Shown here piece by piece: positions 11,762 through 35,201 of a stretch of 64,000 nucleotides of DNA; positions within the stretch are counted from its first letter, which is position 1; each line of letters opens with the position of its first letter. The position numbers and the translations under genes were made by a program. The notes beneath the pieces are model-generated. The model did not search any database. It was not told where the DNA came from and worked only from the letters and a program-made list of their open reading frames with translations. Source of the stretch: Mesonia sp. HuA40 (GTDB lineage: Bacteria > Bacteroidota > Bacteroidia > Flavobacteriales > Flavobacteriaceae); NCBI RefSeq assembly GCF_008017835.1, contig NZ_VRLT01000028.1:1-64000 (forward strand), given 5' to 3'.

Positions 11762-11805
11762 GTAACTTAAGTTACCTGTATAAAAAGAAACATTGCTTTA
11801 CTTTG
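11762..11805 (+). promoter_or_regulatory. Palindromic activator-type site and promoter for single-domain rhodanese gene
   Basis: GTAAC-TTAA-GTTAC at 11762-11775 is a perfect 14-bp palindrome. A -7-like element, TTACTTTG (5 of 6 consensus bases), lies at 11798-11805. Its end is 36.5 bases from the palindrome centre, putting the site near -41.5 relative to the expected start of transcription. The same palindrome at the same spacing precedes two other rhodanese genes (near 31975 and 35194). No TTG -33 box is seen at the right place, which fits an activator-dependent promoter. Confidence 0.7.
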
Positions 11806-11814
11806 ACAAAAAAA

Positions 11815-12126
11815 ATGGGTATTTTAAATTTATTATTGGGCAACAAAAGTAAAATGATTCAAGACTTTAAATCACGTGGCGCTATAATTATTGATGTTCG
11901 CTCGGCAGGCGAATATGCAAATGGTGCCATTCCAGGATCGAAAAATATTCCGCTACAGCAAATCGGTCAAAATATTCAAAAGATCAAAAATTACAACAAA
12001 CCGATTATTACGTGTTGTGCTAGCGGTATGCGCTCTGGGAGTGCGGCAGGGATTTTAAAAAGCAAAGGCATTGAATGTATAAATGGTGGCAATTGGCATA
12101 AATTATATACACTACTCAATCCGTAA
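11815..12126 (+). CDS. Single-domain rhodanese-like sulfurtransferase
   Basis: A 103-residue rhodanese domain with IIDVRSAGEYANGAIPGSKNIPL near the start and the active-site loop CCASGMRSGSA, followed by CINGGNWHKL. The second Cys of the loop is the expected persulfide carrier. There is no signal peptide, so it should be cytoplasmic. The frame extends to a TTG at 11803, but that lies within the predicted promoter; ATG at 11815 is the start. Its end overlaps the opposing GSCFA gene by 11 bases. It probably moves sulfane sulfur in the response to sulfide or polysulfide, as inferred from the shared operator. Confidence 0.88.
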   Translation: MGILNLLLGNKSKMIQDFKSRGAIIIDVRSAGEYANGAIPGSKNIPLQQIGQNIQKIKNYNKPIITCCASGMRSGSAAGILKSKGIECINGGNWHKLYTLLNP

Positions 12127-13072
12127 ACCGCATAAAACCATATTGGTTTTTCAAAGCCTCAATGTCTTGTTTAAGTTTTTGTAAAAAGTTTTGATGCTGT
12201 TTACTTTGAGGGTTAAAAGCTTTATGCTCAAGTCTTTTTTGTACTGAATCTACTTTTTTCATGGTCTCAAACGCATTAGGATTTATCCAGGTTTGCATAA
12301 AATTCTCCCAAATATATTCTATAGCTAGTGACGATGGATGAAGCATGTCTTTTGCGTAAAAGCGGTAGTCTCTCAATTCATCTAGCATAATTTCATAAGA
12401 GGGAAAATACGAGGCCTGCGGCCAGGTTGGCAGCAAATCGTGTATGGCTGTTATCAATTGAGCTTTACTGTAATTATTTTCAACCAAACCGTCTTTCATA
12501 TGTCTTACTGGCGAAACGGTAAATATTACTTTTACATCTTTACGGATGGCAGTGCAATAATTCATTATGCGTTTGAGACTAACTAAAATAGCATCAGCTT
12601 TAACACAAGATTTTGCGAAGTGCTTTTGGGGCACTTTATGACAATTGGCCACATATTTATCGCTCTCAAGATGGCGGTAAATATAGGCCGTACCTAAGGT
12701 AATCACAATGTGAGTGGAGTTTTGCAAATAATCTTGTGTGTCCCTAAGTGCCAAGTTTAATTTTAACAACAAGTCATCTTGTGATTGCGTACTTTTCAAT
12801 CTACTATGCGCCTCAAAGCAGTGCCAAGCTTCATTATAACAAAAAACATCTTGCGCGGTAAATAAATTGTTTTGTGTGGCCCGTAAGAGTAATTTTTCAA
12901 TACCAAAAGGATGAAATAAAATACCTAAGGGATTTTGAAGGTTTTGAAACTTAAAACGATCAAACTGAAGCCCTATATTTTCGGAAAAACACGAACCCAA
13001 AAGCAGTATTTTAGAGCCATAGTCAATTTTTGGTTGCTGCGCTAAAATACTGATAGGGGTCTGTAATTTCAT
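12116..13072 (-). CDS. GSCFA domain protein
   Basis: A 318-residue protein with the name-giving motif LLLGSCFSENIG near the N-terminus (about residues 23-34). Later GDSL/SGNH-like elements are ITLGTAYIYRH, IFTVSPVRHMKDGL and KDMLHPSSLAIEYIWENF, where the last His can act as the catalytic base. GSCFA proteins are putative esterases or hydrolases; the substrate is unknown. The frame extends to a TTG at 13093, but the ATG at 13072 (MKLQTPIS) is a better start. It follows alaS by 30 bases on the same strand and is probably co-transcribed. Confidence 0.87.
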   Translation of the reverse strand: MKLQTPISILAQQPKIDYGSKILLLGSCFSENIGLQFDRFKFQNLQNPLGILFHPFGIEKLLLRATQNNLFTAQDVFCYNEAWHCFEAHSRLKSTQSQDDLLLKLNLALRDTQDYLQNSTHIVITLGTAYIYRHLESDKYVANCHKVPQKHFAKSCVKADAILVSLKRIMNYCTAIRKDVKVIFTVSPVRHMKDGLVENNYSKAQLITAIHDLLPTWPQASYFPSYEIMLDELRDYRFYAKDMLHPSSLAIEYIWENFMQTWINPNAFETMKKVDSVQKRLEHKAFNPQSKQHQNFLQKLKQDIEALKNQYGFMRFTD

Positions 13073-13102
13073 GGCATTATATTTTATCGACAATACTCAC
13101 GG

Positions 13103-15715
13103 CTAATCTATGTAAGTTTTTGCAGCGGATAATGCCTCTGCTAAACCTGATGGGTTTTTACCCCCAGCGGTAGCAAAAAAGGCTTGACCACCACCACCTC
13201 CTTGTATAAACTTACCCAAGTCTCGAATAATCTTTCCGGCATTTAGCTCTTTTTCTTCGGCTAATTTTTTATCGATATAAATAGACAATAAGGCTTTACC
13301 ATTCTGTTTAGATCCAAGCACTAAAAACAATTGTTCAACTTCTCCTGCCAGTTGAAAAGATAAATCTTTCATCGCCGCAGCATCTAAATTTACAGTAGTA
13401 GCTAAAAAATTAATACCATTTACTTGTTGCAGAGCGGCTTTTAGGTTTGTTTTTGCTGCTGCTGCTTTCTCCTTTTTAAGCTGCTCAATCTCCTTTTTAA
13501 GTTGGGCATTCTCATTTTGAAGGTTTTCAACAGCTTTTAAAGGTTCTTTGCTGTTTTTCACCAATTGCTTTAAAGCGTTAAATTGATTGCTTTGCTCGTT
13601 CAAAAAGTCTTTTGCCGCATCTAGAGTAATGGCTTCAATTCGTCTAACCCCAGCAGCAACCGCTGATTCTGATACTATTTTGAAATGCCAAATTTGACTT
13701 GTATTTGAAACGTGAGTACCTCCGCAAAGTTCAAAAGAATTACCAAATTGAATTGTTCGCACCGTATCTCCATACTTTTCACCAAATAACGCCGTAGCTC
13801 CTTGCTCAACCGCTTGAGCAAAGGGTACATTTCTACCTTCAACTAAATCGAGTTCTTCGTAAATACGCGCATTAACAAACTGTTGAATCTCTTCTAATTG
13901 CTCGTGACTTACTTTACTAAAATGAGAGAAATCAAATCTTAAATAAGCAGGGTGTACCAAAGATCCTTTTTGCTCTACGTGCTCACCTAATACATTTTTT
14001 AATGCTTGATGCAATAAATGTGTTGCACTATGGTTAGCAGCTGCATTTAATCTATGTTGATTATTTACCGTAGCAGTAAAGGTAGCATGCAGATCTTGCG
14101 GTAAGTGCTTAGAGATATGAATAATTAAGTTATTCTCTTTTTTAGTATCAATTATATAAGTAAGGTTTCCATTTGGCTCTTCAAGGTAACCTTTATCACC
14201 AACTTGACCTCCTCCTTCTGGATAAAATGGAGTTAAATTAAAAACCAATTGAAATAATTTTCCGTCTTTTTTACTTTCAACTTGGCGGTAACGGGTTAAT
14301 TTAACTTGTGTTTCTAAGTAGTCATAACCAATAAATTCCTCCTCATCATCTTGCCTAAGTATTACCCAATCACCAGCTGTACTTTGAGCAGCGGAGCGCG
14401 AACGTTCTTTTTGTTTGCTCAACTCGCTCTCAAATTCACTATAATTAAGGCTTAACCCTTTTTCTTCCAAAATTAGAGCCGTTAAATCTATAGGGAAACC
14501 ATAAGTATCGTACAATTCAAATGCTTTCTTACCCGAAATCTCTTTTGACTGCGCATTATTGATTATACTTTCTAACAAATTCAAGCCTTGATCTAAGGTT
14601 TTTAAGAAAGAATTCTCTTCCTCTTTAATCACATTTTCACACAAATGCTGTTGCTTTTTAATTTCTGGGAAAGTATCTCCCATTTGGTTGCTTATCACGG
14701 CTACCAATTTATAGATAAAAGCTTCTTTGGTATTTAAGAAGGTAAATCCGTAACGAATAGCCCTTCTTAAAATTCTTCGTATTACATAACCTGCACCATT
14801 ATTGCTAGGTAATTGTCCATCGGCTATAGCAAAACTAACCGCTCGAACATGATCTGCAATTACTCTTATGGCAATATCTGTCTGTTCTGTTTTTTGATAG
14901 GTTGCACCGGTAATGGTTTCAATTTCGTGAATAATAGGCATAAATACATCCGTGTCATAGTTAGACTGTTTGCCTTGCATAACCATCGCCAAGCGCTCAA
15001 ACCCCATTCCTGTATCAATATGCTTTGCGGGCAATTCTTTAAGGCTTCCATTAGCCATTCGGTTGTACTGTATAAAAACCAAGTTCCAAATTTCAACTAC
15101 TTGAGGGTGATCTTGATTCACTAAGTCTTTACCAAGAACTTTCGCTTTTTCCTCCTCCGATCTGATATCGACGTGAATTTCAGAGGCTGGGCCACAAGGC
15201 CCTTGCTCTCCCATTTCCCAAAAATTATCTTTTTTATTGCCTAACAAAATACGCTCTTCAGCAATATGTTTTTTCCATAAGTTAAAGGCCTCATTATCTT
15301 TTTGGATTTGATCCTCCTCATCGCCCTCAAAAACAGTTACATATAAATTCTCTGGTGCTATTTTCAATTCAACGGTTAAAAATTCCCAAGCCCAAGCAAT
15401 TGCATCTTCTTTAAAATAATCACCAATACTCCAGTTACCTAACATCTCAAACATAGTATGGTGGTAAGTATCTTTACCTACTTCTTCTAAATCATTGTGT
15501 TTACCACTTACTCGCAGGCATTTTTGCGTATCAGCTATTCTCGTATACTTGGCCGTGGCGTTACCCAGAAAATACTCTTTAAATTGGTTCATCCCCGCAT
15601 TGGTGAACATCAAGGTAGGATCATCTTTCATCACCATAGGTGCAGAGGGCACAATCTCGTGATTTTTCGATTTAAAAAAGTTTAAAAATCTACTGCGTAT
15701 TTCTTTTGATTTCAT
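13103..15715 (-). CDS. alaS: Alanyl-tRNA synthetase
   Basis: An 870-residue class II enzyme that charges tRNA-Ala. The aminoacylation domain starts [22 protein letters not shown] and contains [28 protein letters not shown]-type sequence and [12 protein letters not shown]. The editing domain has the zinc/active-site motif [11 protein letters not shown] and the later [10 protein letters not shown] coiled segment and C-Ala domain ([18 protein letters not shown]) follow. The frame extends to 15763, but the ATG at 15715 fits the family. It is divergent from the M23 peptidase gene. A CAAAAATA at 15815-15822 (TATTTTTG on the minus strand) may be its -7 element. Confidence 0.97.
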
Positions 15716-15837
15716 AGGCTTTGCGGCTCTTGACTTATAATTATTAGCGTACTTTTGAAACAATGTTTATCTTTGTTCGTTATTAAGGTTGAACATATCA
15801 ACACAAAACGTTTGCAAAAATAGCATAATTTCAAACA

Positions 15838-16812
15838 ATGTCGAAGGTAAAATATTATTACGACAACGAAAGTTTGTCGTATAAAAAGATAGAACGAAAA
15901 CCAGGTAGGAGAATTGGGCTAATTGCATTGGGGATTGCGAGTTCTTTTTTAGCAGGCTTTATTTTATTGATAATCTATTTTAATATCCCGCAAATTGAGA
16001 CGCCAAAAGAGAAAGCACTCAAACGTGAACTCAATAATTTAAAAATTCAATATTCGGTTTTAAATAAAAAAATTGATTTAGCTCAAGAGGTCCTAGCCGA
16101 TGTACAGCATCGAGACAACAATATTTACCGGGTTTATTTTGAGGCCAATCCAATTCCCGAAGAACAGCGCAAAGCAGGATTTGGCGGAGTAAACCGCTAC
16201 CAATACCTCAATGGATTTGATAATTCAGATTTGATTATTGAGACGCATAAAAAAATGGACATCTTGCAGAAACAAATAGTTGTGCAGTCCAAATCTCTAG
16301 ATGAAATCGTGAAATTGGCCAAAGAAAAAGAAAAATTACTTACTGCCATTCCGGCCATACAACCCATAAAAAACGAAAATTTAACCCGCATGGCTTCAGG
16401 CTACGGAATGCGTATGCATCCCATCCTCAAATACCGCAAGATGCATAATGGTATGGATTTTACCGCAAAAAAAGGAACCGACGTATTTGCTACAGGTGAT
16501 GCTACGGTTAAAAAAGCCAGAAGAAGCAGAGGCTTTGGTAATTTAATTATTCTTGACCATGGCTTTGGCTACGAAACCTATTATGCCCATCTTAGTGCTT
16601 TTGAGGTTCGGGAAGGTCAAAAAGTTAAAAGAGGCGAGGTGATCGGCAAGGTAGGAAACACCGGTTTATCAACAGGAGCGCATTTGCACTATGAGGTGCA
16701 TAAAAACGGAAAGGTTGTTAATCCTATAAATTATTACCACGGCGATTTAACGGCAGAAGAATATGATATTATGTTAAACCAATCTACCTTAGAAAATCAA
16801 TCTTTAGACTAA
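15838..16812 (+). CDS. M23 family metallopeptidase (LytM-type cell wall hydrolase)
   Basis: A 324-residue protein. It has a cytoplasmic N-terminus, one membrane helix at about 26-50, a coiled-coil at about 55-85, and a C-terminal M23 domain. Zinc and catalytic residues are visible in HNGMDFTAKKGT (HxxxD) and GAHLHYEVH (HxH). GYGMRMHPILKYRKMHNG is the usual opening of the domain. It probably cuts or regulates cutting of peptidoglycan cross-links at the periplasmic face. Its stop overlaps the start of the MerR gene by one base (TAATG), so translation is coupled. Confidence 0.93.
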   Translation: MSKVKYYYDNESLSYKKIERKPGRRIGLIALGIASSFLAGFILLIIYFNIPQIETPKEKALKRELNNLKIQYSVLNKKIDLAQEVLADVQHRDNNIYRVYFEANPIPEEQRKAGFGGVNRYQYLNGFDNSDLIIETHKKMDILQKQIVVQSKSLDEIVKLAKEKEKLLTAIPAIQPIKNENLTRMASGYGMRMHPILKYRKMHNGMDFTAKKGTDVFATGDATVKKARRSRGFGNLIILDHGFGYETYYAHLSAFEVREGQKVKRGEVIGKVGNTGLSTGAHLHYEVHKNGKVVNPINYYHGDLTAEEYDIMLNQSTLENQSLD

Positions 16813-17141
16813 TGGCGGTTGAGTTACCAAAAAAAATGTATTATGGCATTGGCGAGGTAGCCGAGGCATTCGAAGTAAATACTTCGCTTATTCGCTTTTG
16901 GGAGAAAGAATTTGACATTTTAAAGCCTAAAAAAAACGCTAAAGGAAATCGGAAATTTACTCCAGAAGACATTAAAAATCTAGAAAAAATTTATCATCTG
17001 GTTAAAGAACGTGGCTTCACCTTAGAGGGCGCGAAAATTCAGCTTAAAGCTGAAAAAAGAAAGCCCCTAAATAACTATGAAATGATTAAGCGTCTTAACC
17101 ATATTAAAGAACAATTAATTCAAATAAAAAATCAACTTTAA
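16812..17141 (+). CDS. MerR family transcriptional regulator
   Basis: A 109-residue MerR-type protein made of a winged helix: KMYYGIGEVAEAFEVNTSLIRFWEKEFDIL is the helix-turn-helix, and FTPEDIKNLEKIYHLVKERGFTLEGAKIQL is the second half. A short coiled tail follows, with no metal-binding Cys cluster, so it is not a classic metal sensor. It is translationally coupled to the M23 peptidase gene and lies 12 bases upstream of lemA. Its targets are unknown. Confidence 0.9.
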   Translation: MAVELPKKMYYGIGEVAEAFEVNTSLIRFWEKEFDILKPKKNAKGNRKFTPEDIKNLEKIYHLVKERGFTLEGAKIQLKAEKRKPLNNYEMIKRLNHIKEQLIQIKNQL

Positions 17142-17153
17142 ACAAAAGAAATC

Positions 17154-17744
17154 ATGAAAAAATGGTTAATTCCCGTTATTGTAATCGCCATCATTGGCTT
17201 CATAGCTTATTCGTTATTTGGCGGAACGTATAACACAGCTGTTGAAAAACAGGAAGAAGCCAAAACCGCTTGGTCTAATGTAGAAAATGCCTACCAAAGA
17301 AGAAATGACCTAATTCCTAATTTGGTAAATACGGTGAAAGGTGCAGCAGATTTTGAACAAGAAACACTTACCCAAGTTATTCAAGCTCGTGCTAAAGCTA
17401 CCTCGGTAAATATCGATGCAGATAACCTTTCTCCAGAAGCAATCGCTAATTTTCAACAAGCTCAAGACGGATTAAGTTCTGCAATATCAAAATTACTTGT
17501 GAGCGTAGAACGCTACCCAGAATTAAAAGCTACGCAAAACTATCAGCAATTGCAGTCTCAGCTAGAAGGAACAGAGAACCGTATCAATGTAGAAAGAAAA
17601 CGATACAATGAAGCGGTGAAATTATACAATACCTTTATTAGAAAATTTCCTAACAATCTAGTTGTTGGCTTTTTTGGGTTTGATAAGATGACTGCATTTG
17701 AAGCAGTTGAAGGTGCAGAACAAGCTCCTACTGTAGAATTTTAA
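17154..17744 (+). CDS. lemA: LemA family protein
   Basis: A 196-residue LemA protein with one N-terminal membrane helix (about residues 4-22) and a helical domain. Hallmarks are AWSNVENAYQRRNDLIPNLVNTVKG, LLVSVERYPELKATQNYQQLQSQLEGTENRINVERKRYNEAV and NTFIRKFPNN. The function is not well known; LemA is often next to TPM-domain proteins, as here (the next gene is 12 bases downstream). The product probably sits in the inner membrane. Confidence 0.94.
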   Translation: MKKWLIPVIVIAIIGFIAYSLFGGTYNTAVEKQEEAKTAWSNVENAYQRRNDLIPNLVNTVKGAADFEQETLTQVIQARAKATSVNIDADNLSPEAIANFQQAQDGLSSAISKLLVSVERYPELKATQNYQQLQSQLEGTENRINVERKRYNEAVKLYNTFIRKFPNNLVVGFFGFDKMTAFEAVEGAEQAPTVEF

Positions 17745-17756
17745 TCTTTATTTCTC

Positions 17757-18191
17757 ATGGCTATTCAGCTTTTTACTCAACAAGACGAAAATGAAATTAT
17801 CAATGCGATAAAAGCAGCCGAGAAGAACACTTCTGGCGAGATACGCGTGCATCTAGAAAGTAAATGTAAGGGTCCTGCATTTGAAAGAGCCAAGGAGGTT
17901 TTTGAAAAACTTGAGATGCACCAAACCGAACAAAAAAATGGAGTTCTGTTTTATATTGCTCTTGAAGATCATTTATTTTATATACTAGGCGATCAGGGAA
18001 TTAACGACCGTGTTGAAGCAAATTTTTGGGAGTCGACCAAAGAATTAGTCATTGAGTATTTTAAAAAGGCTGAATTTAAACAAGGATTGATAGCTGGTAT
18101 TTTAAAGGCCGGTGAGCAATTACAAAACTATTTCCCCTACCAGGCAGATGATGTAAATGAATTGTCTGATGAAATCTCAAAAGGCAAATAA
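17757..18191 (+). CDS. TPM domain protein, short cytoplasmic form
   Basis: A 144-residue TPM_phosphatase-type domain. Typical elements are EIINAIKAAEKNTSGEIRVHLESKC, GVLFYIALEDHLFYILGDQGI and FKQGLIAGILKAGEQL. It has no signal peptide or membrane helix. The next gene encodes a second TPM protein with export signal and membrane anchor; the stop and start of the pair overlap by one base (TAATG). The role is unknown. Confidence 0.9.
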   Translation: MAIQLFTQQDENEIINAIKAAEKNTSGEIRVHLESKCKGPAFERAKEVFEKLEMHQTEQKNGVLFYIALEDHLFYILGDQGINDRVEANFWESTKELVIEYFKKAEFKQGLIAGILKAGEQLQNYFPYQADDVNELSDEISKGK

Positions 18192-18997
18192 TGTTCAATA
18201 AAAAACAGATCTTCCGGTATATTTTTTTATTAGGCTTTTTATTGCCTACCCACTATGGTTTTGCACAGCTTAATCTACCAGCCAAACCCAAGGTTGCAAC
18301 TAGTGTTTACGATGCTGCAGAGCTTTTAAGCCCATCTGAAGAATCGGCTTTAAAACAGAAACTCATCAAGTACGCCGATACAACCTCAACCCAGATTGTG
18401 GTAGTTACTATCAACACCTTAAACGGAGAATACATTGGCACATTTGCCGCCGAGTGGGCCCATAAATGGGGAATTGGGGACAATAAAAAAGACAATGGCT
18501 TGCTCATTTTAATGGCAAAAAAAGAACGCAAATTATGGATAACAACTGGCTACGGTCTTGAACAATATTTAACCGATTATCGTACAAAGGAAATTATAGA
18601 TCAAATTATTATTCCACATTTTAAGCGAGGTAATTTTTATGCCGGTTTAGATGCTGGTACTACTGCTGTAATGCAAGTTCTAAGTGGCACTTATAAAACT
18701 CCAAAAAAGAGATCTAGCTCAGGAAATTCTGGAGTTGGTTTTTTTATAATTATTTTCTTTATCGTAATTATTATACTCTCTGTCATTAAGAATCGTAATG
18801 GTGGTGGCAGAAACGGAGGCCGTAAATCTGGGGCAGATTCACTACTTGATATACTCATTTTAAGCAGCATGGGCCGCGGTTTTGGCGGAGGATCTTCTGG
18901 CGGTTTTGGTTCAGGTGGAGGCTTTGGCGGTGGCGGTTTTGGTGGCGGCTTCGGCGGTGGCGGTTTTGGCGGTGGTGGAGCCGGCGGCAGCTGGTAA
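18191..18997 (+). CDS. TPM domain protein (YgcG-like), exported, with Gly-rich tail
   Basis: A 268-residue protein. The signal peptide covers about residues 1-25 (ending FAQ). The TPM domain contains [62 protein letters not shown] and TGYGLEQYLTDYRTKEIID. A transmembrane helix follows at about residues 182-200. The last 40 residues are a Gly-Phe-Ser low-complexity tail, common in this family. The periplasmic TPM domain and membrane anchor suit an envelope role beside LemA. Confidence 0.92.
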   Translation: MFNKKQIFRYIFLLGFLLPTHYGFAQLNLPAKPKVATSVYDAAELLSPSEESALKQKLIKYADTTSTQIVVVTINTLNGEYIGTFAAEWAHKWGIGDNKKDNGLLILMAKKERKLWITTGYGLEQYLTDYRTKEIIDQIIIPHFKRGNFYAGLDAGTTAVMQVLSGTYKTPKKRSSSGNSGVGFFIIIFFIVIIILSVIKNRNGGGRNGGRKSGADSLLDILILSSMGRGFGGGSSGGFGSGGGFGGGGFGGGFGGGGFGGGGAGGSW

Positions 18998-19116
18998 AAG
19001 TCAATTCGTCTTAATTATCAAGCTTTTAATCAATTTTAAGAAAGGATTTTCATTAAATTTTTCGGGATTAGTCAGTTTAGTTGTAATTTTCGGCAACTAA
19101 CTAACAATCTTTAATT

Positions 19117-19272
19117 ATGAAAACTAATCCACCGCAGGAATTACGGGTGCAAGCACTCGGATTCACTTTTAAACGAAAATCAAGCAGTTTTATCACCTGG
19201 ATGAAAGAAATAACCTCATCTAACCCGTATTATGCCAACAAAACTCTATTTCATAAAGAGATGAATTTATGA
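19117..19272 (+). CDS. Possible small protein, 51 codons
   Basis: In the 276-base gap between the TPM gene and the outer-membrane receptor gene there is an ATG-started frame of 51 codons. It has mixed composition: MKTNPPQELRVQALGFTFK, then KRKSSSFITWMKEITSS and a Tyr/Lys-rich end. It ends one base before the opposing gene's stop. Its codon use resembles the neighbours and the region before it looks like a leader (AACAATCTTTAATT). I recognise no family. It may be a real conserved small protein or chance. Confidence 0.4.
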   Translation: MKTNPPQELRVQALGFTFKRKSSSFITWMKEITSSNPYYANKTLFHKEMNL

Positions 19273-19273
19273 T

Positions 19274-22042: not shown

Positions 22043-22110
22043 ATCGATTATTTAAGATAAAAATCATATAATTTACAATAAAATATTTAAAACCCTGATA
22101 AGGGTAACCA

Positions 22111-23626: not shown

Positions 23627-23721
23627 GTGGCTCAGTTTAATACAATAAATGTAATGGATTAAAAAAAGCTGGCAAACGATTTTTTTATTTTTAAGCCCAA
23701 TGCTTTATTAAAGCGCTAATT

Positions 23722-24143: not shown

Positions 24144-24164
24144 TTAACACTATTTATTAAATAT

Positions 24165-25469: not shown

Positions 25470-25538
25470 TTCTTGTATTTTTGATGCTGCAAAAATAGGT
25501 GTAAAAGCTTAGGCTACCTATAATTTTTTAGTATTAGT

Positions 25539-26420: not shown

Positions 26421-26540
26421 AATTTAATTTTTTTACAAAGGTATAATATAAAAAATAAGTAGAGGTATTACTATTTTTAGAAAACATTATCATTTTTTAA
26501 AGGGTACAACTCATTAATTTTAAGTACTTTAAAATAAAAA

Positions 26541-26774
26541 ATGAAAAATTTAGGTCTTCCGCTTTTAGCGATAACAACGTTTATTTTATTAACGGTAACT
26601 ATTTTTGCCGCCATGGATATTGCTTTTACTTGGGTATTTTATTTAACCGTGCTTGGGCAACTTGCATTAGTAATGGCTGTTTACCATGTTTTAATTGACA
26701 ATTACTCTACTACAAAAACATTTGCTGATGGTTATGAGGATGCTCCCATGGCGCCGGGTGAAAAATTTAGGTAA
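26541..26774 (+). CDS. Small two-helix membrane protein, unknown function
   Basis: A 77-residue protein with two hydrophobic helices (about residues 5-26 and 29-50) and a polar C-terminal tail, DNYSTTKTFADGYEDAPMAPGEKFR. It is followed at once by a strong hairpin terminator, so it forms its own transcript. The upstream gap of 120 bases can hold its promoter. I know no function; similar small membrane proteins are common in Flavobacteriaceae. Confidence 0.8.
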   Translation: MKNLGLPLLAITTFILLTVTIFAAMDIAFTWVFYLTVLGQLALVMAVYHVLIDNYSTTKTFADGYEDAPMAPGEKFR

Positions 26775-26808
26775 AAAAAAACCGGAATTAAAAATTCCGG
26801 TTTTTTTT
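26773..26808. terminator. Bidirectional intrinsic terminator between small membrane protein and M1 peptidase genes
   Basis: CCGGAATT (26782-26789) pairs with AATTCCGG (26793-26800), flanked by A8 on the left and T8 on the right. It ends the plus-strand gene and, read the other way, the M1 peptidase gene that stops at 26823. Confidence 0.9.
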
Positions 26809-26822
26809 AATTAATTGATGCG

Positions 26823-28736: not shown

Positions 28737-28748
28737 AGTTGATAATTA

Positions 28749-29408
28749 TTAGTTGAAAAATTGATTTAAATAAGGGAGGGTGATTTGATTAAAATCAGAA
28801 GTTATATGGTCTGCTTCAGAGTAATCTTGATTTTTTGAGTGCGGACTTTTAAACGCAACACAAAAGATATTTGCCGCTTTAGCTGCTTTAATACCGTTTG
28901 TAGAATCTTCTATAACCACACAATGCTCTGGCTTAACTCCTGCGCTTTGTGATGCTTTAAGAAAAATCTCTGGGTGTGGTTTCGAAGCTTTTAAATCTGC
29001 CCCGCTCAATTTATCTACAAAATAGGGATTAAGCCCAAACCTATCAAAAACACTATTAATAGTACCCATAGATGCCGATGAAGCTAAAACCAATTGTAGT
29101 CCAGCCTCGTGATAATGTTTTATTAACTTCTCAACTCCAGAAATTAACTGTAAACTAGGGTCTGTAGCAAATAAAGCTTTAAAAATGCTTCTCTTTTTCA
29201 ATACCAAATCAGTAGGTTTATGTGGAAGGTCAAAATGCTTGCAAAGTTGTTGACAAACATACAAAGTAGATTGACCTGTAAACGTTTGGTACAAAGTTTC
29301 AGGAACCTTAATGCCTATCTCGTCAAACATCCCGTAATAGGCTTTATGGTGTAAAGGTTCTGTATCTACAATTACACCGTCCATATCAAATAATATCGCT
29401 TTTACCAC
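28749..29408 (-). CDS. HAD family hydrolase (beta-phosphoglucomutase-like phosphatase), GTG start
   Basis: A 219-residue HAD subfamily IA enzyme. Motif I is LFDMDGVIVDTEP (nucleophile Asp and acid/base Asp two residues later). Motif II is VLASSASMGT, and the later motifs are KLSGADLKASKPHPEIFLKA and CVVIEDSTNGIKAAKAA. The helical cap fits sugar phosphatases and beta-phosphoglucomutases; the substrate cannot be told from sequence. The start is a GTG at 29408 directly before the conserved strand. It lies 12 bases upstream of the M1 peptidase gene and may share its transcript. Confidence 0.88.
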   Translation of the reverse strand: MVKAILFDMDGVIVDTEPLHHKAYYGMFDEIGIKVPETLYQTFTGQSTLYVCQQLCKHFDLPHKPTDLVLKKRSIFKALFATDPSLQLISGVEKLIKHYHEAGLQLVLASSASMGTINSVFDRFGLNPYFVDKLSGADLKASKPHPEIFLKASQSAGVKPEHCVVIEDSTNGIKAAKAANIFCVAFKSPHSKNQDYSEADHITSDFNQITLPYLNQFFN

Positions 29409-29567
29409 AATTTTTTTTGGTGAAGATAAGCCCTCTAATTAAAAAAGAAAAAAATATCTAAATTCAATCTTCACAACACCCCCTTAAAACACTCATCAAC
29501 AAGCGTTTAAAACTGTTAAAATTAACTGCTAATTTTTTAAAATAACGTATTTTTAAAATAAAATAAA

Positions 29568-30800
29568 ATGTTTCAAAATAAATTTATCTACCTTACTTTT
29601 ATCATTTCTTTATTTTACGGATTTGATTCTACAGCTCAAAATAACTCAGAAGTTGCGGGTTATGTTTACGACCAATCTAACCAAAAACCTGTTGCACAAG
29701 CCCAAGTAGAAATTCAAGAATTGAATATTAATACTGTTACTAATGCCGAGGGTTATTTTAAACTAAAGTATAATAAACTGCAGGGTACAGCTTTTTTAAC
29801 CGTTAATGCCTTAGGTTTTAAATCAAAAAAAATTAGTTTAAACGAAATTACTAAAACCCAACCAATCAAAATATTTTTAAATAGCCAGACCAACATGCTG
29901 CCGGCCGTTGAAATGTTTAGTGTACAAAATTTACAGGAGTTGGTTAAAAAAAGTATAGCAGCACATAAAAAATTCACCAAAGAAAATACTCAATTTCAAA
30001 CTGCCTTTTATCGGGAAACCATCAAGAAATCAAAACGTCCTGTTAGTTTAGCTGAAAGTGTAATTAGGCTAGTGCGGCCTGGTGAAAAATCTTTTAAAAA
30101 TGACAAAATAGCGATCTACAAAGCTCGAAAAATAACTGACTACGACCGTTTAGACACCTTAGCTTTTAAAATGCAAGGCGGACCTTATGCTGCACTTTAC
30201 ACCGATATTATAACTTACAACGATAAATTTTTTGATACGCAAGCCCTTGAATTGTTAGAACTTAAATTCTTAGGCAGGACCCAATTATCTAGCGAGCCAG
30301 TACTTGAAATAGGGTTTAAAGAGAAAATAAAAGGTGACGTATGGTTCTCTGGATCATTCTTTATTCATGAAAAAGAGCAAGTTTTAGTCCAGTTGCATTA
30401 TACCTTAAATGTAGAGGATCGAAAAAAAGCCGCCCGATATTTTGTAAGCAAAAGACCTCGTAAAGTTAAAGTGTACCCTGAACAAATAAATTATGAAGTG
30501 CATTATTTTCGTGATCAAAATATTTGGCGATTCGGGTACAGCCAAGTTATGGCTGAATTTACGGTTAATAAAAAAGGAAAACTCTTTAATACCAAATATT
30601 TTAGTCAAAGTGAACTACTGGTTACAAAACACCAACAAAAAAACTTTAATTTAGACCGCAAAGATTATATACGAGAAGATTATATTTTAATAGACGATAG
30701 ATCAGGTTTTGAAGATGCTACTTTTTGGGGTAAAAATAACATCATTGAGCCCGATAAAAGTATTTTAAATGCTATTGAAAAAATTAGAGCTCAACTATAA
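29568..30800 (+). CDS. Carboxypeptidase-regulatory-like domain protein, exported
   Basis: A 410-residue protein with a signal peptide (about 1-24, ending STAQ). A carboxypeptidase-D-regulatory-like beta-sandwich covers about 28-110 (VAGYVYDQSNQKPVAQAQVEI, NAEGYFKLKY). The remaining 300 residues are rich in beta strands and basic residues (FYRETIKKSKRPVSLAESVIRLV, KVKVYPEQINYEVHYF). Similar proteins are widespread in Bacteroidota and are thought to be periplasmic or outer-membrane associated; the function is unknown. It stands alone; the 171-base gap downstream shows no clear feature. Confidence 0.82.
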   Translation: MFQNKFIYLTFIISLFYGFDSTAQNNSEVAGYVYDQSNQKPVAQAQVEIQELNINTVTNAEGYFKLKYNKLQGTAFLTVNALGFKSKKISLNEITKTQPIKIFLNSQTNMLPAVEMFSVQNLQELVKKSIAAHKKFTKENTQFQTAFYRETIKKSKRPVSLAESVIRLVRPGEKSFKNDKIAIYKARKITDYDRLDTLAFKMQGGPYAALYTDIITYNDKFFDTQALELLELKFLGRTQLSSEPVLEIGFKEKIKGDVWFSGSFFIHEKEQVLVQLHYTLNVEDRKKAARYFVSKRPRKVKVYPEQINYEVHYFRDQNIWRFGYSQVMAEFTVNKKGKLFNTKYFSQSELLVTKHQQKNFNLDRKDYIREDYILIDDRSGFEDATFWGKNNIIEPDKSILNAIEKIRAQL

Positions 30801-30971
30801 TTTTAAAAAGATTAATATAAGTTCTTTATTGATTGATTCATTTAATCTAACCTATTCTAGCACGAAAGATTTTTGCAATGTGAAAGGTTTTTCAATCGCA
30901 TCGAAATCAAATATCCTAAAACAGAAAAAAGGAATATAAAAGGTTTTTATAAGGCTAGATTTATTTATAAA

Positions 30972-31436
30972 TCAATAAATGTGGGTGCCCTTTGTGTTTC
31001 GATCATACATAACAATGCTCCCTGCCACCGCAACATTTAAGCTTAAAGCGGAATTAAACTCGACGAGTAAATGACAGGCTTTTATAGCTTCCTTTGTTAG
31101 GCCGTGATCTTCGGCTCCTAACAAATATACTGCACGCCTAGGATGCTTAAAATTTTCTAATTTTTTAGCGTTTTTATCCTGTTCTACTCCAATTAACAAG
31201 GCACTTTTTGGTAAGTGCTTATAGAAATCTGTAAAGCAATCATAGTGAAAATAAGGCATTGCTCCTACAGCCTTATGCGTATCGCAAGCTTGCTTATGAT
31301 ACCTATTGCCAATGGTAAAAATGAAACTTGCTCCTAGGTTTTGGGCAGATCGCCATAACACACCCAGATTTTCTGGTGTTTTCCCATTTTGTATGCCAAT
31401 ACCAAAATAACCCTGCTCTAAATTATTATTTTGCAT
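30972..31436 (-). CDS. SpoU/TrmH family RNA 2'-O-methyltransferase
   Basis: A 154-residue single-domain SPOUT methyltransferase. Motif 1 is NGKTPENLGVLWRSAQNLGA, motif 2 is AVYLLGAEDHGLTKEA, and motif 3 is LSLNVAVAGSIVMYDR, which form the knotted SAM-binding fold. It is close in size to TrmL. The target RNA is not certain. Its start overlaps the end of the Gre-factor gene by 11 bases, so they are co-transcribed. Confidence 0.9.
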   Translation of the reverse strand: MQNNNLEQGYFGIGIQNGKTPENLGVLWRSAQNLGASFIFTIGNRYHKQACDTHKAVGAMPYFHYDCFTDFYKHLPKSALLIGVEQDKNAKKLENFKHPRRAVYLLGAEDHGLTKEAIKACHLLVEFNSALSLNVAVAGSIVMYDRNTKGTHIY

Positions 31437-31926
31437 ACTTAATAGCTAGAATTTGAACTTTTTTAGTTTTATTACCAAGAGAAAACTCAGAAGATTCCCC
31501 TACTTTAAGTCCATTTAAAACCCTAGCTAAAGGGGCAATAAATGCAATTTTTTGTTGTTTTAAATCAGCTTCATCTACTCCAACAATTTGTAAGTTTTGA
31601 GTTTTGTCTTCAAGCAAAAATTTTACGTACGCTCCAAACCGAACTTCATCTCTAGGCTGCTGTTTTAAGTCTATAATTTTAGCACTGCGAAGGCGATCGT
31701 TCAAAAGTTTCATTTTACCATCAATTACCGCTGAATTTCTGCGGTATTCCGTCTCATTGACTTTATCTAAATTTTTTTTTTGCTCTTCAAGTTCATTTTT
31801 TTCTAACTGCAATAAATCATAACCCTTTGGCGTGACATAATTTACAACACCATTAGGTAAAGCCGCTCTAGGTGGTATAAATGGAGCTTCCTCCTGATCT
31901 TCCTCTTTAACAAACCCTCTACTCAT
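31426..31926 (-). CDS. GreA/GreB family transcription elongation factor
   Basis: A 166-residue protein with an N-terminal coiled-coil (about 35-95: LLQLEKNELEEQKKNLDKVNETEYRR) and a C-terminal FKBP-like domain (VRFGAYVKFLLEDKTQNLQIVGVDEAD, APLARVLNGLKVGESSEFSLG). The N-terminal leader VKEEDQEEAPFIPPRAALP is GreB-like. Gre factors make RNA polymerase cut back-tracked transcripts. The coiled tip carries NETEYRRNSAVIDGK, where acidic residues are expected. It overlaps the SpoU methylase gene. Confidence 0.88.
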   Translation of the reverse strand: MSRGFVKEEDQEEAPFIPPRAALPNGVVNYVTPKGYDLLQLEKNELEEQKKNLDKVNETEYRRNSAVIDGKMKLLNDRLRSAKIIDLKQQPRDEVRFGAYVKFLLEDKTQNLQIVGVDEADLKQQKIAFIAPLARVLNGLKVGESSEFSLGNKTKKVQILAIKYAK

Positions 31927-31968
31927 CGTCTTTATTTTGTAACTTTAAAGATACAAATAATATTAAGT

Positions 31969-32012
31969 GTAACCTGAGTTACGTTTAGGCTATTTATATT
32001 TGTTTACATTTA
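31969..32012 (+). promoter_or_regulatory. Palindromic activator-type site and promoter for rhodanese lipoprotein gene
   Basis: GTAAC-CTGA-GTTAC at 31969-31982 has perfect 5-bp arms. TACATTTA (32005-32012) is a 5-of-6 match to the -7 consensus at the same spacing (36.5 bases from centre to end) as in the other two copies. An alternative perfect -7 element, TATATTTG, is at 31995-32002, one helical turn closer. There is no TTG -33 box for either, since the palindrome takes that place. Confidence 0.7.
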
Positions 32013-32029
32013 CAGCTAAATTCCTTGTT

Positions 32030-32443
32030 ATGAAAAAAATACTATTCACTCTTGCAATAGCCAATTTAAGCCTTTTAGGATGCGGTCAAAAGAGCACTAA
32101 TGAAGCTAATATGACCCAAGAAATAGAAAAGCATGTGGATGGTAGCATTTACATATTGTCTAAGACTGAATTTGCTAAGGCTATTGAAAAAAAAGGAGTG
32201 CAATTGGTTGATGTGAGAACACCTAGCGAATATCAAGAGGGCACTATAAAAAACGCCCAACTTATAGATTATAAGCAACCAAAAACTTTTGACTCAAAAT
32301 TCGCAGCGTTAGATAAAGACAAGCCTGTTTACCTATTCTGCCGCTCTGGAGCGCGAAGCCAAGCCGCTGCCAAGAAATTAGTTAAAATGGGGTTTAAAGA
32401 AATTTATGATTTAGAAGGTGGTTATTTAAACTGGGCAAATTAA
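32030..32443 (+). CDS. Rhodanese-like lipoprotein
   Basis: A 137-residue exported rhodanese. The signal peptide MKKILFTLAIANLSLLGC ends in a lipobox, so the protein should be lipid-anchored and periplasmic. The rhodanese domain has VQLVDVRTPSEYQEGTIKNA and the active loop FCRSGARSQAA, with its Cys present, then EIYDLEGGYLNW. The frame opens at 32000, but the ATG at 32030 starts the lipoprotein signal. It is coupled to the next methyltransferase gene by a one-base TAATG overlap. The upstream palindrome is shared with two other rhodanese genes. Confidence 0.9.
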   Translation: MKKILFTLAIANLSLLGCGQKSTNEANMTQEIEKHVDGSIYILSKTEFAKAIEKKGVQLVDVRTPSEYQEGTIKNAQLIDYKQPKTFDSKFAALDKDKPVYLFCRSGARSQAAAKKLVKMGFKEIYDLEGGYLNWAN

Positions 32444-33027
32444 TGGAAAAATTAGACGCTCGATTTTGGACGGCCAAATATAAAAATCAAGAAACCGGTT
32501 GGGATTTAGGGCAGGTATCGCCTCCATTAAAAGCTTACTTTGATCAATTAGAAGATAAAGATTTAAAAATTCTAATTCCAGGAGGTGGCAATGCTTATGA
32601 GGCGGAATATTTATATGGAAAAGGGTTTAAAAAAGTTTATGTTGCCGATTTATCTGAGACTCCCTTGTTAAATTTAAAAAGACGAGTTCCTTCTTTTCCC
32701 GACCATCATTTATTACATACTGATTTTTTTGAATTGAAAGACCGCTTTGATTTAATTTTTGAACAAACTTTTTTTTGCGCTTTAAATCCAAATTTAAGAT
32801 TTAAATATGCAGAAAACATGAGTCAGCTTTTAAAGCCTTCTGGGCACCTTGTAGGTTTGTTGTTTGACGCTACTTTAAATAATGACAAGCCTCCATTTGG
32901 AGGAAATAAAAAGGAATATAAAGTCTTGTTTTCTAAGTACTTTAATCTTGAAATTATGGAGACGTGCTATAATTCAATCAAACCTCGCTTAGGTAACGAA
33001 TTGTTTATAAAGTTATCACCGAAGTAA
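32443..33027 (+). CDS. Thiopurine-methyltransferase-like SAM-dependent methyltransferase
   Basis: A 194-residue Rossmann methyltransferase of the TPMT family. It opens ARFWTAKYKNQETGWDLGQVSPPLKAYFD, typical of the family. The SAM site is ILIPGGGNAYEAEYLYGKGF with the acidic VYVADLSETPL. FDLIFEQTFFCALNP follows. Bacterial TPMT-like enzymes methylate thiols, sulfide, selenium or tellurium compounds. Translational coupling to a rhodanese lipoprotein gene favours a sulfur substrate, though this is inferred. A strong terminator follows. Confidence 0.88.
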   Translation: MEKLDARFWTAKYKNQETGWDLGQVSPPLKAYFDQLEDKDLKILIPGGGNAYEAEYLYGKGFKKVYVADLSETPLLNLKRRVPSFPDHHLLHTDFFELKDRFDLIFEQTFFCALNPNLRFKYAENMSQLLKPSGHLVGLLFDATLNNDKPPFGGNKKEYKVLFSKYFNLEIMETCYNSIKPRLGNELFIKLSPK

Positions 33028-33044
33028 AAGTATAAAAGTATATC

Positions 33045-33082
33045 AAAAAAAAGATCGGTTGTTACAACCGATCTTTTTTTTT
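33045..33082. terminator. Intrinsic terminator after the rhodanese-methyltransferase pair
   Basis: AAGATCGGTTG (33051-33061) and CAACCGATCTT (33065-33075) pair around a TTA loop, followed by T7 and preceded by A8. It serves the plus-strand pair and can serve the DUF3365 gene that ends at 33101 on the other strand. Confidence 0.92.
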
Positions 33083-33100
33083 CGAATAAAATTATACATT

Positions 33101-33703
33101 TTACTTTTCAATATCAATTGACCACAAGCCACGTATTTGGTTGGCAGCATAGCCGGTGGCTTTATCATTTGGATAAAGCGCTTTGATTTGAGTAAAAGTC
33201 TTTTCGTTTACCTGTTGCCCCACAACACCGTGGCAATTCAAACATAGTTTATTGCTAACAATAGGCTGATAATAACGATAACCCCCATTTTCTTTTTTAA
33301 ATGCACTAGGTCTTATATTTTTACCCGTAGCTAGATCTTTTGAATAAGCTGCTATAAGTTTTTCCTCTGCTCCAGAAGCTTGATTCATCTGATTTCTCGG
33401 TTTATCACTTATCCTTTTAATAGAGTGTTTATGGGCTATAGACATACTGTCTGTTAGCTTTATAGCTGCTGTGTTACAAAAAGTTATCGCTCCTAAAACA
33501 CCTCCTTTTTCAATTGCAAGCTTTAAATTTTTACCCAATACTTGTTGGGAGGCTATGGCTAAATTCTGCCCTATTTCTAAAGCCTCTTCTTGAGAGATTG
33601 CTTCTTTTTGCTCTTTAGCAACCTCCTTATTTTTAGTATTTGGTTGACAGTGAACAAATACAACAAGAAAAAGTAGCCAGTAAAGTGTTTTTTTGCGAAA
33701 CAT
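33101..33703 (-). CDS. DUF3365 (Tll0287-like) heme lipoprotein
   Basis: A 200-residue protein with a short signal peptide ending in VHC, so it is a likely lipoprotein. The body matches the Tll0287-like heme domain (FCNTAAIKLTDSMSIAHKHSIKRIS, KPRNQMNQASGAEE). The c-type heme site is LCLNCHG (CXXCH) near residue 160. Such domains are thought to bind heme for redox or gas sensing. It begins only 8 bases after the MBL-rhodanese gene on the same strand, so it belongs to the same transcript and perhaps to sulfide or redox chemistry. Confidence 0.88.
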   Translation of the reverse strand: MFRKKTLYWLLFLVVFVHCQPNTKNKEVAKEQKEAISQEEALEIGQNLAIASQQVLGKNLKLAIEKGGVLGAITFCNTAAIKLTDSMSIAHKHSIKRISDKPRNQMNQASGAEEKLIAAYSKDLATGKNIRPSAFKKENGGYRYYQPIVSNKLCLNCHGVVGQQVNEKTFTQIKALYPNDKATGYAANQIRGLWSIDIEK

Positions 33704-33711
33704 TTTATTAA

Positions 33712-35127
33712 TTATTTTAGAGTACTAGGGCAAACATATTGGGTAGTTGGCAAGTTGGTTTCGGTTTTAATTTTATTAAAGCCTCCAGCTACTTCTTTAA
33801 AGTTATCCCAACCACGCTGTTTCAATATTGATGCGGCAATCATACTTCTATAACCGCCTGCACAATGAACGGCAAATTCTTGATCCTTAGGAAAGCTCGC
33901 TAAATGATCGTTCATTTCACTCAAAGGTATATTAAGCGCTCCTTCAATATGTTCGGCTTGAAATTCTGAAGCCTTACGCACATCGATTACTTTAAATCCA
34001 TTTTGATTTAATTCATCTTCAAATGTTTTAGGACTTATTCGGGTAACGGTATCAACCTCTTTTCCTGAATTTTTCCAAGCTTCGAATCCTCCTTTAAGGT
34101 AGCCTACGGTATAATCATAACCAACACGAGAGAGACGAGTGAGTGCTTCCTCCTCTGTTCCTGGCTCGGCAATCAAAAGAATGGGTTGTTTAATATCAGG
34201 AATCATAGCGCCTACCCAAGGAGCAAAACTACCTTTGAGCCCTATATTGATACTATTAGGAATAAAACCGTTTTTAAAATCTTCCGCTTGACGGGTGTCT
34301 AATAAAAGTGCACCTGTTTCATTCGCCGCAGCCTCAAATTCTTGGGGAGACAAAGCTTGATCCGCGCGTGTAAGCACATCATCTAAACTTTCGTAACCTT
34401 GAATATTCAACATTACATTTTGCGGAAAATACCCCGGCGGTGGTGTAAGACCATCTAAAACTGCTTCTATAAACTCTTCTTTGGTCATTTCTTGTAGCGC
34501 ATAATTGGTCTTCTTTTGGTTTCCTAGCGTATCGGTGGTTTCTTTACTCATATTTTTACCACAGGCAGAACCCGCACCATGGTTTGGGTAAACAATCAAA
34601 TCATCTGCCAATGGCATAATCTTATTGCGCAAAGAATCATATAAATGGCCTGCTAATTTTTCTTGTGTTAAATCTGCAGCTACTTTTTGAGCTAAATCTG
34701 GTCTACCAACATCACCTATAAATAAAGTATCGCCCGTAATAATACCGTGCTCTTTATCATTTTCATCGATCAATAGATATGTAGTACTCTCCATGGTATG
34801 ACCTGGAGTGTGCAACACCTTAATTTTGTAATCTCCTATTTGAAATTCTTGATTATCTTCTGCAATTAATGCATCATAATTTGGGTTTGCATTGGGACCG
34901 AATACAATTTGAGCGCCTGTCTTTTTTTGCAAATCTAAATGACCACTCACAAAATCTGCGTGAAAATGAGTCTCAAAAACATACTTTATTTTTGCGTTAT
35001 CTTTATTGGCTCTATTGATATATGGCTGCACTTCTCGCAATGGGTCAAAAACAGCAGCTTCGCCATTACTTTCTATATAATACGCCGCATGGGCTATACA
35101 ACCGGTATAAATTTGTTCTACTTTCAT
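33712..35127 (-). CDS. MBL-fold hydrolase with two rhodanese domains (persulfide dioxygenase-like)
   Basis: A 471-residue fusion. Residues about 1-240 are a metallo-beta-lactamase fold with ETHFHADFVSGH (metal site), LHTPGHTMES, TGDTLFIGDVGRPDL and YPNHGAGSACG, close to ETHE1-type persulfide dioxygenases. Two rhodanese domains follow. The first (about 270-355) has IAEPGTEEEA where the Cys loop should be, so it looks inactive. The second (about 370-465) has CAGGYRSMIA with its Cys. The frame extends to 35148, but ATG at 35127 (MKVEQIYTG) fits the family. It probably oxidises persulfides to sulfite and passes on sulfur. Its promoter carries the shared palindrome. Confidence 0.92.
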   Translation of the reverse strand: MKVEQIYTGCIAHAAYYIESNGEAAVFDPLREVQPYINRANKDNAKIKYVFETHFHADFVSGHLDLQKKTGAQIVFGPNANPNYDALIAEDNQEFQIGDYKIKVLHTPGHTMESTTYLLIDENDKEHGIITGDTLFIGDVGRPDLAQKVAADLTQEKLAGHLYDSLRNKIMPLADDLIVYPNHGAGSACGKNMSKETTDTLGNQKKTNYALQEMTKEEFIEAVLDGLTPPPGYFPQNVMLNIQGYESLDDVLTRADQALSPQEFEAAANETGALLLDTRQAEDFKNGFIPNSINIGLKGSFAPWVGAMIPDIKQPILLIAEPGTEEEALTRLSRVGYDYTVGYLKGGFEAWKNSGKEVDTVTRISPKTFEDELNQNGFKVIDVRKASEFQAEHIEGALNIPLSEMNDHLASFPKDQEFAVHCAGGYRSMIAASILKQRGWDNFKEVAGGFNKIKTETNLPTTQYVCPSTLK

Positions 35128-35157
35128 AATTCTCGTTTTTACTTTCAAATTTCTGGA

Positions 35158-35201
35158 TAAAAATACAATATATCATGTAATAATTAAGTGACTAATGTTA
35201 C
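35158..35201 (-). promoter_or_regulatory. Palindromic activator-type site and promoter for MBL-rhodanese gene
   Basis: On the minus strand, GTAAC-ATTA-GTCAC (35201-35188) is the same palindrome with one mismatch. TATTTTTA (35165-35158) is a 5-of-6 match to the -7 element. Its end is again 36.5 bases from the palindrome centre. The leader to the ATG at 35127 would be about 25 bases. Confidence 0.65.

Follow-up and report, generated by a model that had tools for sequence, protein, structure and literature searches.

A conserved palindrome ahead of rhodanese genes in Mesonia, a probable operator of a Crp-type regulator of reactive-sulfur genes

Why do three genes for rhodanese-domain proteins, lying on both strands of one stretch of DNA, carry the same palindrome at the same distance before a promoter box? 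The stretch, referred to here as the window, is the first 64 kb (64,000 nucleotides) of a contig (C54) of Mesonia sp. HuA40, a genome of 2.64 Mb (G000). The initial annotation of this DNA had described GTAAC-N4-GTTAC in front of these genes and had proposed a Crp/Fnr-type class II activator of a reactive-sulfur regulon. We confirmed that the observation is real and that it is wider than first described, and the interpretation is supported. The layout very probably serves as the switch through which a Crp-type regulator, unstudied until now, controls the handling of toxic sulfur compounds, and we consider it quite likely that the palindrome is the operator of one protein, Crp210, acting as class II activator of a reactive-sulfur regulon. 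The predicted operator, its geometry, the target set and the linked regulator are strongly supported by the sequence data, and Crp210 is probably a thiol-sensing protein whose effector we infer.

All three palindromes lie where they had been reported (Table 1), two of them exact and one with a single mismatch, and at all three the -7-like box begins exactly 22 nt past the palindrome, ending 36.5 nt from its centre as the initial annotation had said. If up to one mismatch is allowed, the window contains eight copies of GTAAC-N4-GTTAC, whereas 100 shuffles gave 1.4 on average and never more than 5. A box at 22 nt accompanies only the three reported ones; no TAnnTTTG box was found at that distance, on either side, at the other five one-mismatch palindromes (49, 7657, 21719, 25180 and 45282).

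In the whole genome the exact palindrome occurs nine times and its reversed control five times; the palindrome by itself is a weak signal, and only its combination with a spaced box is specific. Eight of the nine copies have a -7-like box 21-22 nt off on one side (six exact matches to TAnnTTTR, two one letter off), and they precede genes for a peroxiredoxin, for CydA of cytochrome bd, for two window rhodaneses, for TauE and for a YeeE/YedE pair, as well as a SoxB-like operon and a TolC/RND operon. When up to two mismatches were allowed in palindrome and box, 16 matches were obtained against four for the reversed control. Three of the additional sites look convincing, namely those before the window MBL-rhodanese gene, before a second MBL-rhodanese gene (443 amino acids), and between a methyltransferase gene and a sulfide:quinone oxidoreductase (SQR) gene. 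Eight rhodanese domains are encoded in six reading frames genome-wide; at four of these frames the motif stands in the class II position, with one mismatch in two cases. The fifth rhodanese gene (C33, 113171-113437) was tried as a target and rejected, its one-mismatch palindrome GTTACATTTGTTAC (L373, 1817-1830) standing 19 bp before the start and having no box 21-22 nt away; the gene may be under another mode of regulation. At the sixth gene neither palindrome nor box was found.

Some further observations concern these sites. The ninth exact palindrome lies inside a TonB-receptor gene (C22; L001, 1501-1514), has a poor box and is probably there by chance. The SQR gene (L145, 1446-2384; C33 near 100445) seems to be frame-broken shortly past its start, leaving an open remainder of 226 amino acids, through either sequencing error or decay. 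The TolC/RND operon (L147, 2892-8514) encodes TolC, a membrane-fusion protein and an RND pump, whose substrate might be a sulfur species.

The layout GTAAC-N4-GTTAC-N21/22-TANNTTTR was searched in 299 genomes of the family Flavobacteriaceae and was found exactly in 225 of them, with a reversed-control match in 11. We also used a control set of 80 named loci (1.50 Mb) that were picked via their Crp gene and not via the motif. In these loci we counted the layout 137 times; the 59 alternative arrangements of the half-site letters gave 0.07 on average and 4 at most. At least one exact site is present in 67 of the 80 loci. The spacing analysis took 76 of the 80 Crp proteins (length filter 190-235 amino acids); of the 358 orientations of 179 exact palindromes, 135 have the box at offset 22, and each of the other offsets between 5 and 44 accounts for zero to four. 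Randomness, which the initial annotation had named as a possible undoing of its proposal, does not describe this layout.

In Flavobacterium psychrophilum the TAnnTTTG box spans -12 to -5 (PMC9723704) and, since the spacing is fixed at 22 nt, the centre of the palindrome falls at -41.5; the class II geometry claimed for the window sites fits this published position. The main text of PMC9723704 contains neither 'Crp' nor 'GTAAC'. The -33 box had been described as missing, and no canonical one was seen at any of the three window sites; this part of the description did not carry over to the 135 sites of the named relatives, where T is found at -34 in 67% and G at -33 in 64% (and T before the palindrome in 87%), so that across these relatives the -33 element is worn down and not wholly absent. 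Within the genus, all three window sites recur ahead of the same genes in a very close genome (G053), and in a more distant one (G273) site 1 recurs before a rhodanese gene whose product is 78% identical. Other sites of G273 precede TolC, a SoxB-like operon, and a gene that is followed by the 443-amino-acid MBL-rhodanese.

What kind of gene follows such a site was read from 150 distinct sites in loci fetched from 60 of the 225 motif-bearing genomes, 148 of which have a downstream gene; 20 of the regions behind these sites had been chosen for carrying several sites. The downstream start lies within 150 bp at 132 of the 150 sites, and three sites are inside coding sequences. The largest groups are MBL-rhodanese or rhodanese (31, with MBL-rhodanese-rhodanese the most frequent label), TolC (20) and TauE (14), which is in favour of the proposal under the check that the initial annotation had suggested. 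They are followed by a molybdenum protein that most resembles SorA sulfite dehydrogenase (8), SulP, the SQR group and the small gene that opens the SoxB-like operon (7 each), peroxiredoxin (6), a YgaP-type membrane protein (5), DUF983 and DUF3365 (4 each) and Crp210 itself (3), and then by small groups and singletons. The motif thus stands directly before SQR, persulfide dioxygenase (PDO)/rhodanese and TauE genes in many genomes, as for known reactive-sulfur regulators. The simple gene caller retains the longest frames and may overlook the gene that truly lies downstream, which happened with L311; L295, L316 and L318, for which it likewise gave no downstream gene, are left out of the target counts. 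DUF983 or DUF983-like genes with a CxxC motif (L077, 6870-7262; L254, 9604-9993; L288 to L299) recurrently adjoin crp210 or follow the motif, and it is possible that they are a new member of sulfur or thiol homeostasis. The label was assigned by eye for L288 to L299, L317 and L366, of which one member was scanned.

Which protein would read the operator? Two proteins exceed the HTH_Crp_2 cut-off in the genome and both are encoded on other contigs, which agrees with the earlier statement that the window holds no Crp/Fnr gene. One is a 347-amino-acid fusion of a response regulator and a Crp protein on contig C43; the other is Crp210, a Crp/Fnr protein of 210 amino acids on contig C62 (79209-79841, minus strand), whose gene lies about 0.6 kb from the TolC site of the same genome. 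Crp210 has relatives with 99% identity in an uncultured Mesonia genome and with 70% in Mesonia aquimarina, and others in Kordia algicida and in a Maribacter strain. The nearest crp210 gene, in the uncultured Mesonia metagenome-assembled genome (L208, 9983-10629), seems to be frame-broken like the SQR gene. In 15 of 20 multi-site regions of relatives, which had been selected for holding several sites, an orthologue of Crp210 (51-63% identity) is encoded, usually within a sulfur cluster and surrounded by sites; its neighbours there are genes for TauE, MBL-rhodanese, rhodanese, peroxiredoxin, SQR or CydA, many with their own sites. Among the 299 genomes, 220 of the 255 encoding a Crp210 relative have the motif, against 5 of the 44 encoding none (Fisher 6e-23, a value that ignores phylogenetic dependence); of the genomes with a close orthologue (E below 1e-63), 172 of 177 have it. 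A Crp/Fnr gene is therefore both linked to the motif and co-occurs with it, the association for which the initial annotation had proposed to look. One genome (G087) has two crp210 paralogues (L064, 11374-12000; L065, 2922-3554), each by a TauE/MBL-rhodanese cluster, the second of which encodes neither Cys83 nor Cys84.

Crp210 matches PF00027 (34.5 bits), PF13545 (39.6 bits) and PF00325 (28.6 bits), all above cut-off, and combines a cNMP-binding-like domain and a Crp-type HTH with a palindromic predicted operator at a fixed class II position. Modelled by AlphaFold, the orthologue from Mesonia aquimarina adopts the CRP fold (mean predicted local distance difference test, pLDDT, 85.5), and the model matches PDB entries 4ev0 and 3dv8. 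In the recognition helix Arg182, Ser186 and Arg187 occur in 140 of 140 family members and Val183 in 139. In the CRP/FNR helix the Arg at the first position recognises the outer G of the half-site, and without Glu at the following position the preference for G:C two steps in is lost; a helix with Arg182 and Val183 would therefore fit GTAAC instead of the known Crp/Fnr half-sites TGTGA and TTGAT.

The ligand loop of Crp210 differs from that of CRP, in which Gly71, Glu72 and Arg82 contact cyclic AMP (cAMP). These residues align with Ala, Met and Gln in Crp210 itself; in the family the Gly71 position is A, S or T, the Glu72 position is Met in 132 of 140 (else L, I or V), and the Arg82 position is Lys in 113 and Arg in 11 of 140. 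CRP-type binding of cAMP is unlikely because these contact residues are replaced, and the identity of a cAMP-responsive CRP was rejected on Glu72 and Arg82 of the phosphate-binding cassette, which Crp210 does not have. We also rejected an FNR-type oxygen sensor: FNR holds its 4Fe-4S cluster with an N-terminal cysteine cluster, which Crp210 lacks, its first cysteine being residue 77 and Cys77, Cys83 and Cys84 its only ones. On its sequence, Crp210 is filed as a Crp/Fnr member and as neither a cAMP receptor nor an FNR oxygen sensor. The three cysteines align with CRP residues 70, 76 and 77; counted on 167 of 171 distinct Crp210 sequences, Cys77 is present in 167, Cys83 in 164 and Cys84 in 158. 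At least one member without Cys83 or Cys84 still adjoins sulfur genes.

In the mechanism that we propose, a Crp210 dimer would bind the GTAAC-N4-GTTAC palindrome, whose centre is at -41.5, and would bring RNA polymerase to promoters that have no proper -33 box, which would be class II activation. It would turn on genes for the oxidation of sulfide and persulfide (SQR, MBL-rhodaneses, rhodaneses, SorA-like and SoxB-like enzymes), for the export and exchange of sulfite and thiosulfate (TauE, YeeE/YedE, SulP), and for sulfide-tolerant respiration and thiol protection (cytochrome bd, peroxiredoxin), together with the RND pump. The signal, of which we are less certain, may be a reactive sulfur species at Cys77, with Cys83 and Cys84 as its usual partners, in the loop where CRP holds the phosphate of cAMP: SQR would oxidise sulfide to per- or polysulfide, which would modify Cys77 and so set the dimer to bind at -41.5. 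A fuller proposal is about as likely as not: Crp210 would be the founder of a Crp/Fnr subfamily sensing reactive sulfur directly, its phosphate cassette converted into a thiol switch (Cys77-x5-Cys83-Cys84), and would act as master activator for the handling of sulfide, persulfide and sulfite in Flavobacteriaceae and other Bacteroidia families.

Several results weigh against this interpretation. On the promoter side, the box of site 1 is imperfect, sites 2 and 3 were not found before the orthologous genes in G273 within two mismatches (so that the conservation expected by the initial annotation holds for all three sites in G053 and for site 1 alone in G273), and no exact site lies within the flank fetched for 13 of the 80 named Crp210 loci. 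Regulator and motif also part company in places: the exact motif is missing from 35 of the 255 genomes that have a Crp210 relative and present in five of the 44 that have none, and five of the 20 multi-site regions are without Crp210. Among the 150 sites there are targets without an obvious sulfur role (TolC/RND 20, DUF983 4, fatty-acid hydroxylase 2) and many single ones without annotation, and the SoxB and SorA assignments are below the NCBIfam cut-offs. In Crp210 itself, Cys83 and Cys84 are both lost in L065 and L184 and Cys84 alone in L069, and the model is at its least certain in the Cys83/Cys84 loop (block pLDDT 58, against 74 for the Cys77 block).

The strongest competitor keeps the regulon and Crp210 and changes only the effector, which could be sulfite or thiosulfate, the general oxidation of thiols, low oxygen, or a small molecule such as glutathione; we regard this as a real possibility, somewhat short of an even chance. 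TauE, SorA-like and SoxB-like targets would fit sulfite or thiosulfate, CydA and peroxiredoxin would fit a redox or oxygen signal, and activation of Vfr and PrfA by glutathione is mentioned in PMC7315123. However, MBL-rhodanese and rhodanese genes form the largest group behind the motif, SQR genes also follow it, no nitric oxide- or denitrification-type gene was recognised among the downstream groups (which include many single targets without annotation), and the invariant cysteine of the ligand loop is more easily explained by a thiol-reactive signal. It is also conceivable, if improbable, that Crp210 acts as a repressor, or in both directions: polymerase could be blocked at a site that overlaps -33, and many sites have a box that looks good by itself. 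Repressors can usually work from variable positions, whereas the spacing here is fixed (22 nt at 135 of 179 palindromes) and the -33 element is degraded, both typical of activation.

Could the site be read by the response-regulator/Crp fusion instead? Besides Crp210, the fusion alone exceeds the HTH_Crp_2 cut-off in this genome, and the motif is found in 124 of 132 genomes that have it; yet the motif is also present in 101 of 167 genomes without a fusion match at E<=1e-80 (at most seven candidates per genome were scored), versus the 5 of 44 without Crp210, and the fusion is not the Crp gene of the sulfur clusters, where one weak match of 30% was seen (L074). It was rejected as reader of the site on the lack of such a match in those 101 motif-bearing genomes, and we think this explanation very improbable. 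Least credible of all is that the layout arises by chance or is a general promoter element without a regulator. The palindrome alone is indeed not rare, as the comparison with the reversed control and the copy without a proper box in the TonB-receptor gene illustrate, but the gene content and the co-occurrence with Crp210 speak against this, and the permuted half-sites (137 against a mean of 0.07) and the spacing peak (135 at 22 nt) led us to reject it.

Plain loss of the motif does not account for all of the 35 genomes that have a Crp210 relative and no exact motif, part of them being explained by drift of the operator to GTAAC-N4-ATTAC. This variant, at the same box spacing, occurs in 11 of 18 genomes that have a Crp210 of intermediate distance and no exact motif, and was found in none of 12 genomes with only a distant Crp relative and none of 19 without Crp210; a reversed-control match was found in two of the 49 genomes of this survey. 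Of 13 variant cases analysed, eight lie between Crp210 and YeeE/YedE-TauE and five before DUF983-like genes. It seems that in the diverged Crp210 clade the operator has drifted and the layout has been kept. Many genomes with a diverged Crp210 of this second clade (L183 to L207) show the drift; the retrieval yielded the wrong gene for L177, L186 and L191.

In other families of the class Bacteroidia the layout was found in 56 of 286 genomes, against 19 with a reversed-control match. A Crp210 relative was detected in 29 of 32 motif-bearing genomes tested versus 17 of 29 motif-free ones; the 32 (of the 56) and the 29 were chosen by family and not randomly. Among 22 sites in 20 loci fetched from these other families, where retrieval gave the wrong gene for L342 and none for L336, 13 precede MBL-rhodanese (4), rhodanese (4), TauE (2), TolC (2) or DUF3365 (1) genes, and the remaining ones precede other genes, including, by eye, thioredoxin-like, DUF983-like and thioredoxin-reductase-like genes. 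Six of 27 Crp210 relatives outside the family (L335, L344, L346, L348, L349 and L350) have Glu instead of Val183 in the recognition helix, which suggests that they may use a different operator. As the cause of the missing motif outside the family this replacement is not decisive, the motif being present in 18 of 22 Val carriers and three of six Glu carriers.

The rhodanese, MBL-rhodanese-rhodanese, TPMT and DUF3365 assignments of the window genes behind the three sites were upheld by Pfam, the DUF3365 family now being named Tll0287-like (Table 1). The product of 33712-35127 has the architecture of CstB and PDO-rhodanese proteins, an MBL domain followed by two rhodanese domains, and its best PDB sequence matches are 3tp9 and 3r2u (3r2u at 8e-59), the latter of which we take to be Staphylococcus aureus CstB. 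It scores 59.1 bits against the NCBIfam Blh model, whose cut-off is 625, so that persulfide dioxygenase activity is putative. The 552-amino-acid 5'-nucleotidase-like product of the SoxB-like operon, outside the window, has SoxB as its best NCBIfam model (265.8 bits, cut-off 550). TPMT relatives are present in 19 of the 80 named Crp loci, and DUF3365 relatives also lie directly downstream of some motif sites in other genomes.

Table 1. Promoter elements and genes at the three sites of the window
Feature	Coordinates	Strand	Remarks
Site 1 palindrome GTAACTTAAGTTAC	11762..11775	+	exact; predicted Crp/Fnr operator, centre -41.5; also in G053 and G273 before the orthologous gene
Site 1 -7-like element TTACTTTG	11798..11805	+	imperfect, A of TAnnTTTG absent
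Single-domain rhodanese, 103 aa (amino acids)	11815..12126	+	ATG at 11815; PF00581, 54.6 bits
Site 2 palindrome GTAACCTGAGTTAC	31969..31982	+	exact; kept in G053
Site 2 -7 element TACATTTA	32005..32012	+	
Rhodanese with lipoprotein-like start, 137 aa	32030..32443	+	ATG at 32030; PF00581, 81.9 bits
TPMT-like methyltransferase	32443..33027	+	overlaps rhodanese stop codon, presumed same operon; PF05724, 94.6 bits
Tll0287-like (DUF3365) protein with CxxCH	33101..33703	-	presumed second operon gene after MBL-rhodanese-rhodanese; PF11845, 77.8 bits
MBL-rhodanese-rhodanese protein, 471 aa	33712..35127	-	ATG at 35127; PF00753 and two PF00581 stretches
Site 3 -7 element TATTTTTA	35158..35165 (reads 35165-35158)	-	
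Site 3 palindrome GTAACATTAGTCAC	35188..35201	-	one mismatch; kept in G053

If the proposed role of Crp210 is true, one regulator and one 44-bp promoter grammar would explain the control of sulfide, persulfide and sulfite in much of a major bacterial family, and the layout would provide leads to the function of the poorly understood DUF983, Tll0287-like and YgaP-like genes and of the RND pump. Among the papers listed by keyword searches, none dealt with a Crp/Fnr protein regulating rhodanese or sulfide genes of Bacteroidota, which is weak evidence, as some queries may not match the spelling 'Crp/Fnr'.

Among known systems, Crp210 shares with E. coli CRP, at its class II promoters, the Crp/Fnr domains and fold, a palindromic operator centred at -41.5 and the Arg...Ser-Arg pattern of the helix; it differs in its replaced cAMP contacts, its three ligand-loop cysteines and the Bacteroidota-type -7 box, and its predicted operator has GTAAC where other Crp/Fnr operators have TGTGA or TTGAT. 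The Eubacterium rectale Crp/Fnr protein of PDB 3dv8 is the best PDB sequence match (4.5e-21) and the second structural match, and has cysteines aligned with Cys77 and Cys83. It differs in domain arrangement (root-mean-square deviation to the model 13.6), has Glu where Crp210 has Val183, and is described only as a putative regulator.

By function, the nearest comparison is the cst regulon of S. aureus, with CstR, TauE, CstA, CstB and SQR. In both, TauE, MBL-rhodanese-rhodanese, rhodanese and SQR are under one regulator, here as judged by the motif. CstR, as described in the 2022 review PMC9774590, is a CsoR-like repressor that senses persulfide by dithiols; here, in contrast, a Crp/Fnr protein with activator geometry would control a larger and dispersed regulon. 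Acinetobacter baumannii has sulfide- and persulfide-controlled operons with SQR, PDO, TauE and YeeE/YedE under FisR and BigR, according to PMC7315123. FisR is a sigma-54 activator, and SqrR of Rhodobacter and its homologue BigR are ArsR-family repressors (PMC9774590, PMC7315123); they share the SQR, PDO, TauE and YeeE/YedE target types with Crp210, and none is of the Crp/Fnr type. The Crp-like A1S_1182 of A. baumannii was reported to be persulfidated (PMC7315123); unlike Crp210 it is close to E. coli Crp and Vfr, it has its cysteine opposite the ligand pocket, and the account in PMC7315123 describes no sulfur regulon of its own. Crp210 would thus appear to work like a reactive-sulfur regulator, having the corresponding target set and putative sensing, and, if this is true, a Crp/Fnr type would join CstR, SqrR/BigR and FisR among such regulators (PMC9774590, PMC7315123).

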